Shown piece by piece: positions 20,345 to 42,449 of a stretch of DNA of 42,456 bases. A program made the position numbers and the translations under genes. The notes below the pieces were generated by a model. That model saw only the letters and a list, made by a program, of their open reading frames with translations, searched no databases and was not told the origin of the DNA. Source of the DNA: Methanobacteriota archaeon (GTDB taxonomy: Archaea; Thermoplasmatota; Poseidoniia; Poseidoniales; Poseidoniaceae); NCBI GenBank assembly GCA_018701175.1, contig JABIWF010000028.1, positions 1 through 42,456 on the forward strand, read 5' to 3'. Every line of letters begins with the position of its first letter. The stretch's first letter is position 1.

Positions 20345-21325
20345 TCAGTTTTCCGCTTTTTTCTTGGGCTGCAACAGTCCGAAAGGCCGAAGCAACCGAA
20401 CGATGTGCTTATGCAACTCTGGTAGAATATCAAACATGATGAGAGCCATGAGGAACATAGCACCAAGTGAAACAACTCGAGCCGCATAAGCATGACCAAA
20501 TTCGAATACAGACATTCCAAGGTACGACCACTCTGTATACGTCATGTGCATCCAGATCAACCCGGCATTACGGAACAAGTTGAGGATATGAATCACTGGA
20601 ATAGTCAGCAGAAGCGCTTGACAGCGACGACGCCAATCAATGTCCAAAACCGCAATAGCACCGATGAAAATGACCATCGATTGAAGAGCAGTACATGCTA
20701 AAACAAAATTAATTCCAATTGCGGTGCCATCACTCAAAAGTAATTCCGTTTGGAACGGATATTCGCCCACAAACTCACCCATGAACCAGCGATTTCCGTC
20801 CCATGTACTCCAAGCCACTTCCCCATTGACGGTGTTCACTGTTGTTTCTCCGAGGACAACATCTCCTGATCCCGAAAAACGGAGGAACATCGCAGCTTGG
20901 CTGGCAACGAACCATATGGCCAGAACATTGAGCCATGGCACATGGGCGATGAGTAAGTACGGCCCACCAGCATATGCAACGGCACCTCTTGCCCAAAGAA
21001 GAGATTTCTTTGTTTGGATATCGACAACTCTCCCTTCCCACGCGGCCATTCCTATACCCATTGGCAAGGCTGCTGTGCAGAATATTGTGAGTACAGCATC
21101 ATCATGGGCTAAATATTTTGATGCATCGTTAAAGAATGTTAATCCGACCATTATCCAGCCAAATTGTGCCAATCGTATTCCCTCCTTTTTTCGATTGTGC
21201 CACGAAATGGCAAGGGAAATCATACCCACTGCTCCAATGAGAGAACCAACCTCTGCATTGAACAGCATGATGACTTCCAAGAGATGATTCCATTTCAACA
21301 CTGTTATGGTTCGATGCAAAATCAC
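20345..21325 (-). CDS. Archaeosortase/exosortase-like integral membrane protease-transpeptidase
   Basis: Polytopic; FVLACTALQSMVIFIGAIAV...VIHILNLFRNAGLIWMH...FEFGHAYAARVVSLGAMFLMALIMF matches the Cys / NxxR / His-Arg pattern of archaeosortases. Internal ATG at 21268 is an alternative start. Confidence 0.7.
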   Translation of the reverse strand: MILHRTITVLKWNHLLEVIMLFNAEVGSLIGAVGMISLAISWHNRKKEGIRLAQFGWIMVGLTFFNDASKYLAHDDAVLTIFCTAALPMGIGMAAWEGRVVDIQTKKSLLWARGAVAYAGGPYLLIAHVPWLNVLAIWFVASQAAMFLRFSGSGDVVLGETTVNTVNGEVAWSTWDGNRWFMGEFVGEYPFQTELLLSDGTAIGINFVLACTALQSMVIFIGAIAVLDIDWRRRCQALLLTIPVIHILNLFRNAGLIWMHMTYTEWSYLGMSVFEFGHAYAARVVSLGAMFLMALIMFDILPELHKHIVRLLRPFGLLQPKKKAEN

Positions 21326-25005: not shown

Positions 25006-26355
25006 ATGGCCTTCTGCCCGCTGGATTATCGATACGGTTGCCAAGATTTCAAACGCATTTGGTCCGAAGTCGGACGGCACGAACGCCAACTCGAAGTTGA
25101 GCGTGCTTTGATTTGGGCACACATGCAACTTGGTCGAGTCACTGAAGTGGACTACAATGCTGTTGCAGCGATTGCAAATCCTGATTCTGTTACCAAAGAG
25201 CGCGTCTCGGAAATTGAAGCCGAAACACGCCACGATATTATGGCCCTCACCAAGGCAATGGCCGAAGCAGCCGGTGATGCAGGTTGGTGTATTCACCTTG
25301 GAGCAACTTCCAACGATATTGTAGATACAGCCGTCGCTCTGCAACTTCGCGACAGCATCGTTTTGCTCCGTGAACAATTATGTCTTCTCATCGGCGTATG
25401 TGCAGACGTCGCAGAACGTGAACGAGATACAGTAATGCTCGGACGTACGCACGGGCAAGCAGCAGTTCCGATTACTTTCGGTTTGAAAGCAGCAGTATGG
25501 CTCGATGAACTTCGCAGGCATCTGGTCCGCTTGGATGAAGCAGCACCCCGAATTTCTGTTGGTAAATTCCTCGGTGCAGTCGGTACCGGTGCTGCACAAG
25601 GCGAGAATGCACGAGAATTACAACGGTTGATTCTAACCCACCTGGGTCTCGGCGTGCCGCTCGCAACCACTCAAGTTGTCGGTCGAGACCGGTACATTGA
25701 GTACGTCTCATGGCTGTCAACAGTTGCAGCAACTTGTGAGAAAATTCTACAAGAAGTTCGAAACTTACAACGCTCCGAACTCCGTGAAGCAGGTGAAGGA
25801 TTCGATGTCGAAAAGCAAGTTGGTTCATCGACTATGGCGCACAAGAAAAATCCAATCAAGTCAGAGAACGCTTGTGGACTTGCACGTATTGTCCGTGCGA
25901 TGATTATTCCAACATATGAGAATGCGTTGTTGTGGCATGAACGCGACCTTGCGAACTCCAGCAGTGAGCGTTTTACTCTCTCGCACGGTTCGGCTCTCTG
26001 TGAAGATGTACTTGCTAAAACACGAGATGTACTCAAGAACATGTGGGTCGACGCTGAACGCTGCATGGCGAACATCAAAGCACAGAAGGGTCTTGTGATG
26101 GCAGAGAAAGTAATGATTGATTTGGTCGACCACGGCATTCCCCGAGATGAAGCACACGAAATTCTACGTGCGGCTTCTTTCGAAGCAGTGGATAAGAATC
26201 TCGAACTGATAGATGTCTGCAGCCGTACTCCTGAGATCTCTGCGGCGTTCTCTGCTGAAGAACTTGAGGCTATGTTTGAACCTGCCAACCACATTGGTGT
26301 TTCCGGTGAAATTGTCGACGAGTGCGTTGCTCTCGCTCGTCAAGCAATCGCTTGA
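25006..26355 (+). CDS. purB: Adenylosuccinate lyase
   Basis: MAFCPLDYRYGCQDFKRIWSE; HLGATSNDIVDTA; GRTHGQAAVPITFG; fumarase/ASL signature GSSTMAHKKNPIKSE. Confidence 0.93.
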   Translation: MAFCPLDYRYGCQDFKRIWSEVGRHERQLEVERALIWAHMQLGRVTEVDYNAVAAIANPDSVTKERVSEIEAETRHDIMALTKAMAEAAGDAGWCIHLGATSNDIVDTAVALQLRDSIVLLREQLCLLIGVCADVAERERDTVMLGRTHGQAAVPITFGLKAAVWLDELRRHLVRLDEAAPRISVGKFLGAVGTGAAQGENARELQRLILTHLGLGVPLATTQVVGRDRYIEYVSWLSTVAATCEKILQEVRNLQRSELREAGEGFDVEKQVGSSTMAHKKNPIKSENACGLARIVRAMIIPTYENALLWHERDLANSSSERFTLSHGSALCEDVLAKTRDVLKNMWVDAERCMANIKAQKGLVMAEKVMIDLVDHGIPRDEAHEILRAASFEAVDKNLELIDVCSRTPEISAAFSAEELEAMFEPANHIGVSGEIVDECVALARQAIA

Positions 26356-27005
26356 ACATCCGTAATTTCGTATGTTCCTCGGACGCCATCCCAGTGTACT
26401 TCTCCGAACAATTCCAATCGTCCCGGTAGATGAGGTCCGCCGGTTACCAACGTCTCGTATTCCCCACCTTCGCCGTCAACATTGAATCGATAGCGCTTTG
26501 CAAGCTCTTCGAGTTCGCTTAGAGATTCTGCATCGAGTGTACGCCCAATCCATTCTTTTCCAAGACCCTCACAACTCACCCCGGTGATGAATACCTCGAA
26601 CTTATTTTCGATAAGTCCACGCATGTGTGCTTCGCTTTGTTGATGCCAAAGCGGAGTCCAGCTTTTGATATTGAGTCGCTGTGCCATTCTTTCAATTCTG
26701 CTCTTTTGGTAATCGGAACGTAATGCACCACTAACAACACCGTCGATTTTTAGATGTGCTAATGCTTTTTCAAGGTCATTAATTTCATCCTCTTGAACAC
26801 CTTTTGTTTTGACTTCAATCCAGGGGATATCTGCGAGTCGTGCTTGGTGCTCTACCAAATGCGTTCCTGGTACTTGGAACATCCACGAATCTCCGCCAGT
26901 GATGCGAACCGTCACAAGATGAGTAACATCCCACCCACGGCATGTCGCCCACCACCAGGATGCGGCTGAATCTTTGCCGCCGGATGAGAGCACTGCAACG
27001 CGCAT
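26340..27005 (-). CDS. dph6: Diphthine-ammonia ligase Dph6-like ATP pyrophosphatase
   Basis: MRVAVLSSGGKDSAASWWWAT (PP-loop SGGKDS); VSGALRSDYQKSRIERMAQRLNIKSWTPLWHQ; GEGGEYETLVTGGP. Confidence 0.85.
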   Translation of the reverse strand: MRVAVLSSGGKDSAASWWWATCRGWDVTHLVTVRITGGDSWMFQVPGTHLVEHQARLADIPWIEVKTKGVQEDEINDLEKALAHLKIDGVVSGALRSDYQKSRIERMAQRLNIKSWTPLWHQQSEAHMRGLIENKFEVFITGVSCEGLGKEWIGRTLDAESLSELEELAKRYRFNVDGEGGEYETLVTGGPHLPGRLELFGEVHWDGVRGTYEITDVQAIA

Positions 27006-35437: not shown

Positions 35438-36709
35438 TCACTGGACGGACTTGAATCCTTCATGATCGACGCCCCATGGGAGCGTTGCGTCAAAGCCGAC
35501 TTTGGCAGTTAAACCGTCACTGTCACGCGAGGGGTCGAGTGAACTTCCTTTTTGGTTTGACAGAATGAGCGTATCTTTGTCAGGTTGCCATCGAGTGACC
35601 ATTGCCCATTCGACGCGAACTGGGTTTCCAATATCGATGTCTTCATCAACAACTGTGACCATTTTCATGCTACGATGTCCTGCCAGTGCAGCATGTATTG
35701 CATTCATAGAATCTTCAGGATTCTTCTTTCGGATTTTGACAACTGCAGCCAGCCAACCACAACCACCTTCGGTCATATGGACATCGATGCATTCACAGAC
35801 TTCGTTAACTGCAGATTTAATGGTCGGAGCTCGTGGAAGCCCCATCAATGTCTTGTGTTCAGCCTCGCCTGGAATTAATGCGTGGAATATAGGATTGTCG
35901 CGGTGAACAACACCGTCGATTTCAATCACAGGTTCTTGACGGACATCATCAACAGTCCCGGTGATGTCTACATACGGTCCTTCATCATCATCTTCAGCGG
36001 TGATACGTCCCCAGAGCACATATTCGGCATCGGCTGGAGCCAAAACTCCGTTCGGCATGCGTGTTAAGCGCAATGGTTTGTCATACAGTTTTTCGTGAAG
36101 TGCCGCTGCTATGGTGAGTTCATCGATGTTATCGTCGAATGACATGGCAGCCGCTAACAGTACGACCGGGTCTGGTGCATTGACGATTGCAATGTCCACT
36201 TCTCGACCTTCCTTGCGAGCATTCATGGTAAGCGTTCGTAAGTGGCGTGGAACCAAACGGACAACCAGGTGATTTTCATCTCGAACGAATTGGCGGTGGA
36301 ACGACATGTTTCGGATGCCTGCGTCTTGGGCAATAATGACGCTTGCAGATGAATAACGTCCACGGTCTTGAGGCCAGTGGTGCGGAATTGGAAGTTTTGT
36401 AATGTCGACAACTTCCTGCAAGTTCTCAAAACATTCAGCTTCCGAGGCATCGACAATAACGGGTTCACTTGGATTGTTCATTGCCCACCCGAGCGTGTCG
36501 ATGTATTCTTCTGGAGTGATACCGATTGATTCGCACAGTCGGTCACGTGTAAGGATATTGACGGCAGCACGTTGGCCTGGTGTTTCAGGAATGTTGGTGA
36601 ACAAGGTGAGGTCGTGATTGCTTGCACGCGAGTGCTCCCACATGCCGTGGATGAGGCTGGTCGGGGCTGGTTCTTCTTTGGCTGCGCCAAGGTGGTCACG
36701 GAAGGCCAT
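35438..36709 (-). CDS. UbiD-family prenylated-FMN-dependent decarboxylase
   Basis: MAFRDHLGAAKEEP...MSFHRQFVRDENHLVVRLVPRHLRTL...VNAPDPVVLLAAAMSF...DAEYVLWGRI...GPYVDITGTVDDVRQEPVIEIDGVVHRDNPIFHALIPG...HRSMKMVTVVDEDIDIGNPVRVEWAMVTRWQPDKD. ORF 35438..36778; ATG 36709 preferred. Confidence 0.85.
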   Translation of the reverse strand: MAFRDHLGAAKEEPAPTSLIHGMWEHSRASNHDLTLFTNIPETPGQRAAVNILTRDRLCESIGITPEEYIDTLGWAMNNPSEPVIVDASEAECFENLQEVVDITKLPIPHHWPQDRGRYSSASVIIAQDAGIRNMSFHRQFVRDENHLVVRLVPRHLRTLTMNARKEGREVDIAIVNAPDPVVLLAAAMSFDDNIDELTIAAALHEKLYDKPLRLTRMPNGVLAPADAEYVLWGRITAEDDDEGPYVDITGTVDDVRQEPVIEIDGVVHRDNPIFHALIPGEAEHKTLMGLPRAPTIKSAVNEVCECIDVHMTEGGCGWLAAVVKIRKKNPEDSMNAIHAALAGHRSMKMVTVVDEDIDIGNPVRVEWAMVTRWQPDKDTLILSNQKGSSLDPSRDSDGLTAKVGFDATLPWGVDHEGFKSVQ

Positions 36710-36860
36710 GGTTCGTCCACTTAGGCACATCGTTTGAACCTTGTTTAATGCATGGGTTGGAATACTGCCTAAAATCAAACATTTTGTCGAATCTATGAAC
36801 CATATATTGTCAATCCATCCTCACAAGCATCCGTACATTCACATGGGCTTTGAGGGTCGC

Positions 36861-38126: not shown

Positions 38127-40334
38127 ATGGGCCGAAAGGAAGACAACATTAACAAAGCAACAGAAGTTATGCACATTTTACCTCAGATTCGAAATTTGTG
38201 TATTGCTGCACACATTGATCACGGTAAAACAACCCTCTCAGACAACCTGATAGCGGGTGCAGGTATGATGTCCAGCGACCTTGCAGGTTCTGCTCGTGTT
38301 CTCGATTTCGATGAACAAGAATCCGCCCGTGGTATCACTATCAATGCAGCATCCGCATCAATGGTTCACGGCGTTGAAGGCACTGATTACCTCATCAATC
38401 TCATTGACACACCAGGTCACGTTGACTTTGGTGGCGACGTGACACGTGCTATGCGTGCAGTTGACGGATGTTTCATCCTTGCGTGTGCAGTCGAAGGCCC
38501 AATGCCTCAAACTGAAACCGTCGTTCGCCAAGCATTGAAAGAGAAGGTAAAGCCAGTTTTGTTCATCAATAAGGTCGACCGTCTCATCAATGAATTGCAA
38601 GTAACTCCTGAAGACATGATGGCTCGATTTACTGAGACCATCAAGAAGGTCAACCGCCTTATCAAGCAGTTTGCTCCAGATGAATTCAAGAAGAGCTGGC
38701 AAGTTTCCGTTGCAGACGGAACAGTGGCTTTTGGTTCCGCTTACCACAACTGGGGAATCACCGTCCCTTACATGGCTAAGTCGAAGATTTCTTTCACAGA
38801 GATTTTCGAATACTGTAACAATGAAGACCAAAAGACACTAGCCGAAAAGGCTCCAGTTCATGAAGTTCTTCTTGACATGGCAGTTACTAAATTGCCAGGG
38901 CCTGTCGAAGCACAACCATACCGTATTCCAAACATTTGGACCGGTGACCTCGACTCAACAATTGGTAAAGCAATGATCAGTTGTGACCCTGAAGCAGAAC
39001 TTGCTATGATGATTACCAAGATTTGGATGGACCCTCACGCAGGTGAAGTTGCAGTTGGACGTATTTACTCCGGTGCAATTGCACAAGGTGAATCGGTCTA
39101 TGCAATTGGTGCAGCCAAACCAGAACGTGTTCAGCAAGTCAGCATGATGGTCGGAGGCGACCGGATTACTGTCCCGAAGGTTGTTGCAGGAAACATTGCA
39201 GCCCTCACAGGTATTCGCTCCGCTGCCGCTGGTGTAACACTGTCACGCGACAAGGATTTCACTCCGTTCGAAGCGATTCGACACTATTCCGACCCTGTCG
39301 TTACCGTTGCGGTTGAACCAAAGAGCATGAAGGACCTACCAAAGTTCATTGATGCGCTCCGTTCACTTGCAAAATCTGATGCCTCTCTCCAAGTCACAAC
39401 GAACCAAGAAACCGGTGAAGCACTGCTTGCTGGTATGGGTGAGTTGCATTTGGAAATCACAGTATACCGTATCGAAGAAGAACAGAACATCAAGGTCAGT
39501 GTCAGCCCACCAATCGTTGTTTACCGAGAAGGTATCCAAGGAAGCAACCGTGGACATGCGTTTGAAGGTAAGTCTCCAAACCGTCACAACCGATTCTTCT
39601 TTGAAATCGAAGCACTCACTCCTGAAGTTGTTGCAGCACTGCGTGCTGGAGATTTAGGATCCGGTACAATCCGACCTAACGATGCAAAGGAAGTTGGCCG
39701 TAAGTTCGGTGAACTTGGAATGGACAAAGATTTGATGCGCAAGATTTACGCAATCAACGGATCAAACGTTCTTGTGAACGACACCAAGGGTATTCAAGGG
39801 CTTCACGAAACCCGTGAACTAATCATTGAAGCATTCAACGGCGTCTGTTCAAAGGGCCCAATTGCTGATGAACCCGTTCAGGGAATGTTTGTCCGTCTTG
39901 TTGACGCCAAACTTCACGAAGACGCTATCCACCGAGGTCCTGCACAAACAATTCCTGCGGTTCGAAACGGAATAAAGGGTGCAATGATGCGTGCTCGCAC
40001 AGTTCTTTTGGAACCAATGCAAAAGGCGTTTGTCTCAGTTCCAAACGACTGGCTCGGTCAAGTAACTCGTGAAGTTACCAACCGTCGTGGTATCATTGAG
40101 GATATGCCATCTGAAGGTGAAGTTACTACCGTTGTCGGTGTTCTACCAATCGCTGAAACATTTGGATTTTCCAACGATATTCGTGCTGCATCGCAAGGTC
40201 GAGCAGTTTGGAACACAGAAAACCTCGGCTTCGAACAATTGCCTCCACAATTGTTTGACAAAGTCGTCGGTCAGATTCGAACACGTAAGGGGCTTAAGCC
40301 AGAACCTTACCCAGAATCCTACTATTCTGAGTGA
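38127..40334 (+). CDS. fusA: Translation elongation factor 2 (aEF-2)
   Basis: RNLCIAAHIDHGKTTLSDNLIAGAGMMS...DEQESARGITINAA...LIDTPGHVDFGGDVTRAMRAVDG...HEDAIHRGPAQTIPAVRNGI (diphthamide His region). Confidence 0.96.
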   Translation: MGRKEDNINKATEVMHILPQIRNLCIAAHIDHGKTTLSDNLIAGAGMMSSDLAGSARVLDFDEQESARGITINAASASMVHGVEGTDYLINLIDTPGHVDFGGDVTRAMRAVDGCFILACAVEGPMPQTETVVRQALKEKVKPVLFINKVDRLINELQVTPEDMMARFTETIKKVNRLIKQFAPDEFKKSWQVSVADGTVAFGSAYHNWGITVPYMAKSKISFTEIFEYCNNEDQKTLAEKAPVHEVLLDMAVTKLPGPVEAQPYRIPNIWTGDLDSTIGKAMISCDPEAELAMMITKIWMDPHAGEVAVGRIYSGAIAQGESVYAIGAAKPERVQQVSMMVGGDRITVPKVVAGNIAALTGIRSAAAGVTLSRDKDFTPFEAIRHYSDPVVTVAVEPKSMKDLPKFIDALRSLAKSDASLQVTTNQETGEALLAGMGELHLEITVYRIEEEQNIKVSVSPPIVVYREGIQGSNRGHAFEGKSPNRHNRFFFEIEALTPEVVAALRAGDLGSGTIRPNDAKEVGRKFGELGMDKDLMRKIYAINGSNVLVNDTKGIQGLHETRELIIEAFNGVCSKGPIADEPVQGMFVRLVDAKLHEDAIHRGPAQTIPAVRNGIKGAMMRARTVLLEPMQKAFVSVPNDWLGQVTREVTNRRGIIEDMPSEGEVTTVVGVLPIAETFGFSNDIRAASQGRAVWNTENLGFEQLPPQLFDKVVGQIRTRKGLKPEPYPESYYSE

Positions 40335-40339
40335 TCTGC

Positions 40340-40801
40340 ATGAACGGCTCGATTGCGGGCCTCTTTGCAGCACCTGAAGGTGGAGTGCCCAAGCCACTGG
40401 TTGAACAACTCGATGTTCGAGTCAACGGTTGTGTTGGAGATTATCAGAGAGACAAGAAGCATCATGGCGGCCCAAACCGCGCCGTATGCCTGTTCAGTTC
40501 CGAAGTGGTTTCATTTTTACAAGAGAACGGCCATCCCATTTACCCAGGTTCCGTTGGTGAAAATATTCTCGTTGCGGGGCTGCAATGGGAGCATGTAGGC
40601 ATTGGCACAATTTTCCAGTTTGATGATCTCATTTTGGAAGTCACATCTGATGCCCCGCCGTGTAAGACGATTCATGATTCATTTACCAACGGTAGTTTCA
40701 AGGAAATTTCAGTGAAAAAAGCACCTCACATGACGCGATGGTATGCGAAAGTCATCAAGGAAGGCAACGTCAAAATTGGCGATGCTGTTGAAATCAACTG
40801 A
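40340..40801 (+). CDS. MOSC-domain protein
   Basis: DYQRDKKHHGGPNRAVCLFSSEVVSFLQ...PIYPGSVGENILVAGL...APPCKTI; MOSC family signature including the conserved Cys. Confidence 0.88.
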   Translation: MNGSIAGLFAAPEGGVPKPLVEQLDVRVNGCVGDYQRDKKHHGGPNRAVCLFSSEVVSFLQENGHPIYPGSVGENILVAGLQWEHVGIGTIFQFDDLILEVTSDAPPCKTIHDSFTNGSFKEISVKKAPHMTRWYAKVIKEGNVKIGDAVEIN

Positions 40802-42449
40802 TTCGCTTCAATTGGAAGTCTGTTAATTCACGCAGAGCCTTCATTGCAGGTCCCTGTGGAATACGGTCCAAACAAGCATGCGCCTTAGCGTGGTAATCTG
40901 CCGCTCTTTGCTTTGCATAGTCAATAGAACCGAGGTTACCCAGTGCCTTGACAGCAGCCTCAATGGCTTGAGCGTCAGCATCTTCGCCTTTTCCAAGTGC
41001 TGCAAGCAAGGTTTGCTTGTCTTCACTGTCGGGTTGCGCAAGGGCATGAATGACCATCAACGTCCTCTTACCTTGGGCTACATCAGAACCTGCTGGCTTT
41101 CCAAGGACATCGGAATCGGACAGTACATCAATCAAATCATCCATAAGTTGGAAGCAGAGTCCTACTGCAAGACCCCAATCTGCCATACAATCTATTGTTT
41201 CTTGGTCAGCACCCGCCATTCGTGCACCAATCTCAGCACATGTGAGGAACATGACAGCAGTCTTTCCTTCAATCATCTCGATGTAGTCGTCTTCGGATAC
41301 TGCGAGCTCATCTTCAAACTCAATATCCATCTGCTGACCTTCACTTACGCGTCGAACCATCCAAGCAATTCTGTTGACCAGTGGAGCCACATCGTTTGCC
41401 TGTAGCCCTTCAGCCTGTACTAATCGCTCGAATGCGATTGCCAGCATTGCATCACCGGCATTGATGGCGGTGGGAAGGTCAAATTCAATATGGACAGCAT
41501 TTCTGCCTCTTCGAACTTCATCATCATCCATGATATCATCGTGAACCAGTGTGAAATTGTGAACTGTTTCAATCGCTGCACCTACATCGAGCATACCAGA
41601 GTGAGAGTCACCAACCGCCTTTCCGACGAGCCATGGTAGTGTTGCACGCAATCGCTTTCCACCACCATGAATGAGGTGCGTCATTGCAGCAGCCAATCGT
41701 TCATGCCGTGAGGCCATCAAGCTGTTCATGATACGTTGCTCGACCAATGGCTTGACTTCCAGAACAGAGATATTGAGTCCGGCACCCACTGCCTCTGGCA
41801 GCATGTGTGTCACATCGCCCATGTCGTGAATTTTATCGTCGCTTAATGCGTTCAATGCATCCGTGCTACCAATTGCGCTCCACCAATCATCGTTCATGAT
41901 TTGAGCAGCAATGCATCGAAACCAGGGGGCAACCGAGCCGTTGGAACGTTCCTCTTCAATGAGCATATCTTCCAACTCCTCTTGCGAGACCCACATGATT
42001 TCCGAGACCTCGTTTTCATTGATGTTGAGTTCAACGTCTTTCTGAGCAATCAAAATGTGGTCGATTTCTCTTTCAATCCACGTTTCATTCATTCGTGCTG
42101 AATAACGCATCTTTGTCATGAAAGTAAAGTCATCCGTCGAAAATTGGCTTGGGTCGATTCCAAGTTCCTGTTCTAATTTGCGAACTGCAGCCATCTTTAC
42201 ACCGAGTGCCCCTTCTTCGACCAATTCTTCATCGCTGTGAAGTGGGTGTGAGCAACAGGAATTCGCCCATACGCCAGGAAATGTGACTTTGTCGTGTGCT
42301 CGGCGTTGGAGCAGCAATCTCTTTTGAGAATCAAAGAGCAGGACACTGAATGCACGGTGGTATGCTCCAGCGTCTCTGTGAGCCGAAATTTTAGACAGAG
42401 GTCCGAGTACTACATCCTTTTCATCAACTGCAATAATTGCTTCTGACAT
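40794..42449 (-). CDS. Fusion of type I (Nudix) isopentenyl-diphosphate isomerase and polyprenyl (GGPP-type) synthase
   Basis: N-terminal YHRAFSVLLFDSQKRLLLQRRAHDKVTFPGVWANSCCSHPL...ETWIEREIDHILIA (IDI type I). C-terminal GGGKRLRATLPWLVG...LVHDDIMDDDEVRRG...FQLMDDLIDVLSD (two Asp-rich motifs). One uninterrupted frame. Confidence 0.9.
   Translation of the reverse strand: MSEAIIAVDEKDVVLGPLSKISAHRDAGAYHRAFSVLLFDSQKRLLLQRRAHDKVTFPGVWANSCCSHPLHSDEELVEEGALGVKMAAVRKLEQELGIDPSQFSTDDFTFMTKMRYSARMNETWIEREIDHILIAQKDVELNINENEVSEIMWVSQEELEDMLIEEERSNGSVAPWFRCIAAQIMNDDWWSAIGSTDALNALSDDKIHDMGDVTHMLPEAVGAGLNISVLEVKPLVEQRIMNSLMASRHERLAAAMTHLIHGGGKRLRATLPWLVGKAVGDSHSGMLDVGAAIETVHNFTLVHDDIMDDDEVRRGRNAVHIEFDLPTAINAGDAMLAIAFERLVQAEGLQANDVAPLVNRIAWMVRRVSEGQQMDIEFEDELAVSEDDYIEMIEGKTAVMFLTCAEIGARMAGADQETIDCMADWGLAVGLCFQLMDDLIDVLSDSDVLGKPAGSDVAQGKRTLMVIHALAQPDSEDKQTLLAALGKGEDADAQAIEAAVKALGNLGSIDYAKQRAADYHAKAHACLDRIPQGPAMKALRELTDFQLKRIS

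Follow-up and report, generated by a model that had tools for sequence, protein, structure and literature searches.

The joining of an IPP isomerase (IDI) to an enzyme that condenses isoprenoid units has precedents outside the archaea. For example, the diatom protein PtIDISQS combines an isomerase with squalene synthase (PMC12168105), so it shares with the protein described here the union of an isomerase with an isoprenoid-condensing enzyme, although it is eukaryotic and its second domain is a squalene synthase rather than the polyprenyl_synt domain (PF00348) found in this case. A bacterial precedent was identified on the Bacillus subtilis plasmid CP123774.1, where a 543-aa protein that is annotated only as idi (WGP08112.1, L182:5983-7614) also places a Nudix isomerase ahead of a polyprenyl synthetase in a single chain. 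Genes for a UbiA prenyltransferase, another prenyl synthase and an FAD monooxygenase lie beside it in what looks like a terpenoid cluster. Because its isomerase groups with E. coli IDI, its overall identity to the archaeal protein is ~28%, and it lies in such a plasmid cluster, the B. subtilis fusion is an independent one.

In archaea, type I isomerases have been described as few, as present in Haloarchaea and Thaumarchaeota, and as acquired from bacteria (PMC3533463), and the fusion is not reported in a 2024 survey of isoprenoid genes in archaea, whose trees were built with IDI2 (PMC11052028). Isomerase fusions as such are already known, and a fusion of IDI with a prenyltransferase of the GGPP synthase type in Poseidoniales is not described in the open-access literature that was searched, a search that had most subscription papers and all supplements outside its reach.

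The fusion considered here was found in a stretch of DNA of 42,456 nucleotides, called the window below, which is one complete contig (JABIWF010000028.1; C148) of a genome (GCA_018701175.1) that is 1.9 Mb in size and 86% complete. The nearest named relatives of the window are genomes of Poseidoniales (Marine Group II).

A fused idi-idsA gene at a contig end

The fused idi-idsA frame has its stop codon at 40794-40796 on the minus strand and is open up to the end of the contig, which is also the end of the window (Table 1). In the initial annotation it was described as an uninterrupted ORF of 551 aa; the frame is uninterrupted, but the start codon assigned to it is probably not the true one. Because the contig ends at this point and relatives with 98, 96 and 92% identity start ~34 residues earlier, the ATG at 42449 is probably internal, and the true start would lie ~34 codons further upstream, outside the window, for a full protein of about 585 aa. 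These relatives extend upstream of the window's ATG (for example, MSGYDIADVPNIELSDSEKGLLESLGADSTQSIL-MSEAII) with a conserved N-terminal stretch that begins MSGYDI.DVP, and the last two codons of this stretch are visible in the window, which reads VL-MSEAII only.

Table 1. Positions in the window of the fused gene, its parts and its convergent neighbours.
Feature	Coordinates	Strand	Evidence or remark
Translation elongation factor 2 (EF-2), convergent neighbour of the fusion	38127..40334	+	ORF list, neighbourhood comparison
MOSC-domain protein between EF-2 and the fusion	40331..40801	+	3′ overlap with the fusion of 8 bases
Fused idi-idsA ORF	40794..42449	-	551 codons visible; 5′ end cut by contig end
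Predicted short-chain trans-prenyltransferase (GGPP synthase type), residues 233-551	40797..41753	-	PF00348; nearest structures 5jfq, 1wy0
Second Asp-rich motif DDLID (D437-D441)	41127..41141	-	Invariant apart from one D441E
First Asp-rich motif DDIMD (D304-D308), Phe299 at -5	41526..41540	-	Invariant; no insertion in motif
Junction, residues 206-232	41754..41834	-	Junction alignment, low dN/dS, predicted strand 207-212
Type I (Nudix) IPP isomerase domain, residues 1-212, eukaryote-like	41814..42449	-	TIGR02150, human IDI1/2 scores, invariant residues
Codon of catalytic C66 (CCSHP)	42252..42254	-	Aligns with catalytic Cys of E. coli IDI (1nfs/1i9a); invariant

Both the full type I isomerase and the full trans-prenyltransferase that had been recognized in this ORF are borne out by domain searches and by alignment. 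A Pfam search of the ORF places a NUDIX domain at residues 30-177 and polyprenyl_synt at residues 250-502, the latter with 222 bits against a cut-off of 27, and an NCBIfam search assigns the N-terminal half to the type I IPP isomerases (TIGR02150, 153.2 bits against a cut-off of 105.8). The catalytic and metal-site residues of the isomerase (H24, H31, C66, H68, E126 and E128) are all present when the protein is aligned to the solved human and E. coli structures, and the prenyltransferase half contains intact GGGKRLR, DDIMD and DDLID motifs. In 36 of 36 fused or split relatives, the six isomerase residues, the GGKR motif and the two Asp-rich motifs do not vary, with one D441E as the only exception, and no catalytic residue is missing from either half.

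From these features, the fused ORF very probably encodes a bifunctional enzyme that makes GGPP from IPP alone. Its N-terminal domain would convert IPP to DMAPP in the way typical of type I isomerases, through metal-dependent protonation by Cys and Glu, and its C-terminal domain would add three further IPP to this DMAPP to produce GGPP. The fusion would fix the two activities at a 1:1 ratio and would place the apparent sole source of DMAPP beside its main consumer; the fused protein is the only isomerase, and the only prenyltransferase of the GGPP synthase type, that was found in the window's genome.

A probable route from overlapping genes to a single protein

The same two enzymes are encoded separately in some close relatives of the window. 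In family f3, which is the class's third family and represents its sister order (probably Marine Group III), the isomerase and prenyltransferase are neighbouring genes, idi followed by idsA, and they are also split in the four of four genomes seen from a genus, g9, that is placed in the window's own family, Poseidoniaceae. These pairs have the enzymes, gene order, strand and a related C-terminal isomerase motif in common with the window, and the g9 pair also has the EF-2 neighbour in common with it, but they are made as two proteins with an overlapping stop and start rather than as one. The idi stop overlaps the idsA start by 4 bases (ATGA or TTGA) in all four g9 genomes and in five of the six from the sister order, and the sixth (L139) has an overlap of 10 bases.

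Alignment of the split and fused forms shows that the C-terminus of the split isomerase (e.g., VHHMGEVE-stop) aligns with the fusion junction IHDMGDVTHML, the first part of which (KIHDMGDV) matches the C-terminus of the stand-alone isomerase, and that the split idsA start MSLPESV aligns with HMLPEAV, so the methionine of the fusion corresponds to the split start Met. By this alignment, the fusion point lies exactly where the split idi and idsA genes meet. Since idsA is out of frame with idi in the split arrangement, an indel of one or two bases would join both, and comparison of the two forms suggests that a translationally coupled idi-idsA operon may have lost its overlapping stop and start to yield the fusion. 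In a combined isomerase-prenyltransferase tree, g9 falls outside all fused forms (support 81/70), and therefore one fusion, a single change on the tree, would be sufficient. One fusion may therefore be the history, but two fusions, or a fission in g9, may be as well, since the AU test is also compatible with a tree that groups g9 inside its family (p 0.215), and an EF-2 tree gave no placement of g9 either.

There is about an even chance that the fusion was a near-neutral event, in which the stop/start overlap was lost by a small indel and the outcome was a fixed stoichiometry only, with no kinetic benefit. This explanation is favoured by the position of the fusion point at the 4-base overlap of the split relatives, where so small a change suffices, but it has to be weighed against the retention of the fused state in every other genus of Poseidoniales for which a full-length match is listed, and against the constraint seen at the junction.

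This constraint is evident in comparisons with the two nearest relatives, which give a dN/dS of ~0.02-0.05 for the isomerase and prenyltransferase domains alike and a low value for the junction as well, so that both halves and the junction are under purifying selection. An AlphaFold model (29 sequences; mean pLDDT 84, pTM 0.85) contains halves that match the structures of human IDI1 and archaeal GGPP synthase, respectively, a strand at residues 207-212 in the junction with pLDDT 83-94 around it, and a low-confidence loop at residues 304-330 that includes the first Asp-rich motif. The junction is short, is constrained by purifying selection and has predicted structure, and the fusion is retained in two families, all of which would be consistent with the earlier proposal that the fusion channels DMAPP from the isomerase to the prenyltransferase or sets its local supply. 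On this reading, the fused and split enzymes would differ in flux or in product length. It seems unlikely, since the sister order and genus g9 appear to manage the same task with a split pair, the length and sequence of the junction differ between families, and prenyltransferases of this family act as dimers.

Predicted chain length of the product

The closest solved relatives of the prenyltransferase half are the archaeal GGPP synthases of Geoglobus (5jfq) and Pyrococcus (1wy0), with which it has its fold, its Asp-rich motifs and 35-37% identity in common, although these enzymes are without the isomerase fusion. The residue at position -5 before the first Asp-rich motif, F299, is invariant in relatives and is the aromatic residue associated with a C20 product. 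In the Sulfolobus GGPP synthase, the equivalent Phe77 limits the product, and its mutation gives C30-C50 chains (PMC4244643); by the rule taken from that work, in which a Phe at -5 corresponds to GGPP, the product of the fused enzyme is predicted to be C20.

Of the curated models, methanogen IdsA, a short-chain synthase, scores best, and the prenyltransferase half reaches the NCBIfam cut-off of none of the named equivalogs, falling short both for IdsA_Meth (NF040698, 293 against 468 bits) and for GGPP_syn (NF041003, 264 against 500 bits), so it is better said to work like either named equivalog than to be one, and its product length is read from one residue together with kinship. Enzymes that yield both C15 and C20 are known in a methanogen and in Thermococcus (PMC4244643), a precedent that, along with the scores, speaks for FPP or a longer chain as the product. 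The invariance of the Phe at -5, whose Sulfolobus counterpart limits chain length, and the identity of the nearest solved structures make such a product quite improbable, and GGPP remains the predicted one.

The one other prenyltransferase found in the window's genome is probably a long-chain enzyme because it has Ala at -5 and adjoins a geranylgeranyl reductase gene (L151:7887-9032). What appeared to be a second and a third prenyltransferase in this genome is a single gene cut by two contig ends (G000:C58, L150:8647-9420; G000:C139, L151:9042-9671), and the two were rejected as separate genes.

Distribution of the fusion in Poseidoniales

Of 150 listed matches, 141 are full-length fusions with the same open junction, from ~140 Poseidoniales genomes in independent assemblies, and this junction is present in 80 named loci, including the single-contig Marine Group II chromosome CM001443.1. 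Although the window's genome is fragmented and the ORF touches a contig end, this recurrence leaves only a negligible chance that an assembly join or a sequencing frameshift, for which there is no sign at 41800-41950, created the fusion. The IDI-prenyltransferase fusion, which the initial annotation had taken to be natural, is real and order-wide in Poseidoniales, where the survey of archaeal genomes found the same architecture in at least ~140 genomes.

By our own table count, ~234 of 272 Poseidoniales genomes contain a strong match and ~38 a weak one or none. Where the latter were inspected, only the second prenyltransferase paralogue was present; their number is roughly the proportion expected from assembly incompleteness, and they include genomes that are 93% and 97% complete (G042 and G055), so some may represent real losses. 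Several apparent half-genes are contig ends or N-runs, and an apparent split in a genome of the window's own genus (G124) was not counted as a true split because an N-run sits at its junction. Long prenyltransferase frames of 577-817 aa in other Thermoplasmatota were also set aside, as the extra stretch in the two loci read in the correct frame, L157 and L172, looks like out-of-frame translation of GC-rich sequence and has no isomerase motif.

A eukaryote-like isomerase in place of the type II enzyme

The type II (FMN) isomerase of most archaea was not found in the window's genome (TIGR02151, best score 23.9 bits against a cut-off of 281.3), nor above the cut-off in any sampled genome of the class among the 293 Thermoplasmatota surveyed; because the window's genome is 86% complete, its apparent lack of a second isomerase is judged in part from relatives, among them the single-contig genome G002. 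Type II isomerases are above the cut-off in 187 of the 293 genomes, all of them outside the class (187 of ~205 non-class genomes). Type I is present throughout the class; outside it, no more than five of the sampled genomes score above the cut-off (G325, G327, G372, G478 and G496), none of which is among the type II matches above the cut-off. Judged by these profile matches, the two types largely exclude each other across the phylum, and the type I isomerase of the class stands in for the unrelated type II enzyme.

In sequence, the window's isomerase is eukaryote-like, and it is far closer to human IDI1/2 (156-160 bits) than to E. coli IDI (61 bits), which sets the Poseidoniia isomerase apart from the published archaeal type I enzymes of bacterial derivation. 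Human IDI1 and IDI2 are of the same type (39-40% identity over ~215 structural columns, 42% by sequence), but they are stand-alone enzymes whereas the window's isomerase is fused. The sister-order isomerase (L138-L143) shares 50% identity with human IDI1 and is equally close to the isomerase of the window. In a small isomerase tree, human IDI1/2 fall among the sequences from Poseidoniia (93/79). The bacterial sequences are separate from these (100/99), and the type I enzymes of a family elsewhere in the phylum (f6) group with them. The bacteria in this tree are plasmids and E. coli only, with no other eukaryotes and no Asgard archaea, and therefore no direction of transfer is claimed.

It is possible that the isomerase gene was exchanged between marine archaea and eukaryotes; no viral contigs carrying the isomerase were found. 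A more elaborate reading, that the protein is a self-priming GGPP synthase which passes DMAPP on directly, and that its isomerase has a recent common origin with eukaryotic IDI1, the ancestor of Marine Groups II and III having either received the gene from eukaryotes or donated it to them, and displaced the type II enzyme, is doubtful when taken as a whole.

Genomic neighbourhood and lipid context

EF-2 adjoins the idi-idsA locus in most Poseidoniales checked, whether the locus is split (g9) or fused, and does not do so in the sister order. The convergent MOSC gene and the stop end of the fusion overlap by 8 bases in the window (40794-40801). Since EF-2 lies directly after the idi-idsA locus in the g9 relatives, the MOSC gene would have been either inserted in the window's lineage or lost in g9.

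Other genes in the window include an archaeosortase A homologue (20345-21325, minus strand; TIGR04125, 98.7 against 75 bits) and a diphthamide synthase (26340-27005, minus strand), which shares the window with EF-2, the protein that carries diphthamide. There is also a UbiD-family decarboxylase (35438-36778, minus strand; TIGR00148, 315 against 245 bits). The anhydromevalonate phosphate decarboxylase of the archaeal-type mevalonate pathway is a UbiD homologue, and the gene in the window could encode this enzyme, in which case it would be the window's second isoprenoid gene. The HMG-CoA reductase of the class (G000:C125:411-1532, G002:C1:693626-694747) scores only 30-46 bits on the TIGR00533 NADP model, with a cut-off of 441.8, so it is predicted to be strongly diverged or of another class.

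A role of the fused enzyme in archaeal lipid synthesis, as suggested in the initial annotation, is plausible because GGGP synthase, which consumes GGPP, is present in nine of nine genomes tested. For the glycerol-1-phosphate dehydrogenase family (PF13685), however, none of the six Poseidoniales genomes tested (G000, G002, G034, G004, G106 and G010) gave a match, and matches were found in a sister-order genome (G001) and in four genomes of other families. Earlier reports also described this dehydrogenase as absent and the lipids as unknown (PMC6962369, PMC7852524, PMC6461757). Marine Group III has been reported to be without it as well (PMC6962369), in contrast to the one PF13685 match in G001. 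GGPP from the fused enzyme would thus probably feed ether lipids of unusual backbone.

Implications

Few archaea of the surface ocean are as abundant as those of Marine Group II, which are uncultured. Since one chain holds both their apparent sole source of DMAPP and their predicted GGPP synthase, expression of this one protein would show which allylic precursor they can make. The likeness of the isomerase to eukaryotic enzymes makes gene exchange between marine archaea and eukaryotes a concrete question. In addition, the presence of split and fused forms in close relatives constitutes a natural experiment on the passage from operon to fusion, and a comparison of the two would show cleanly whether there is any advantage in having an isomerase and a prenyl synthase joined.
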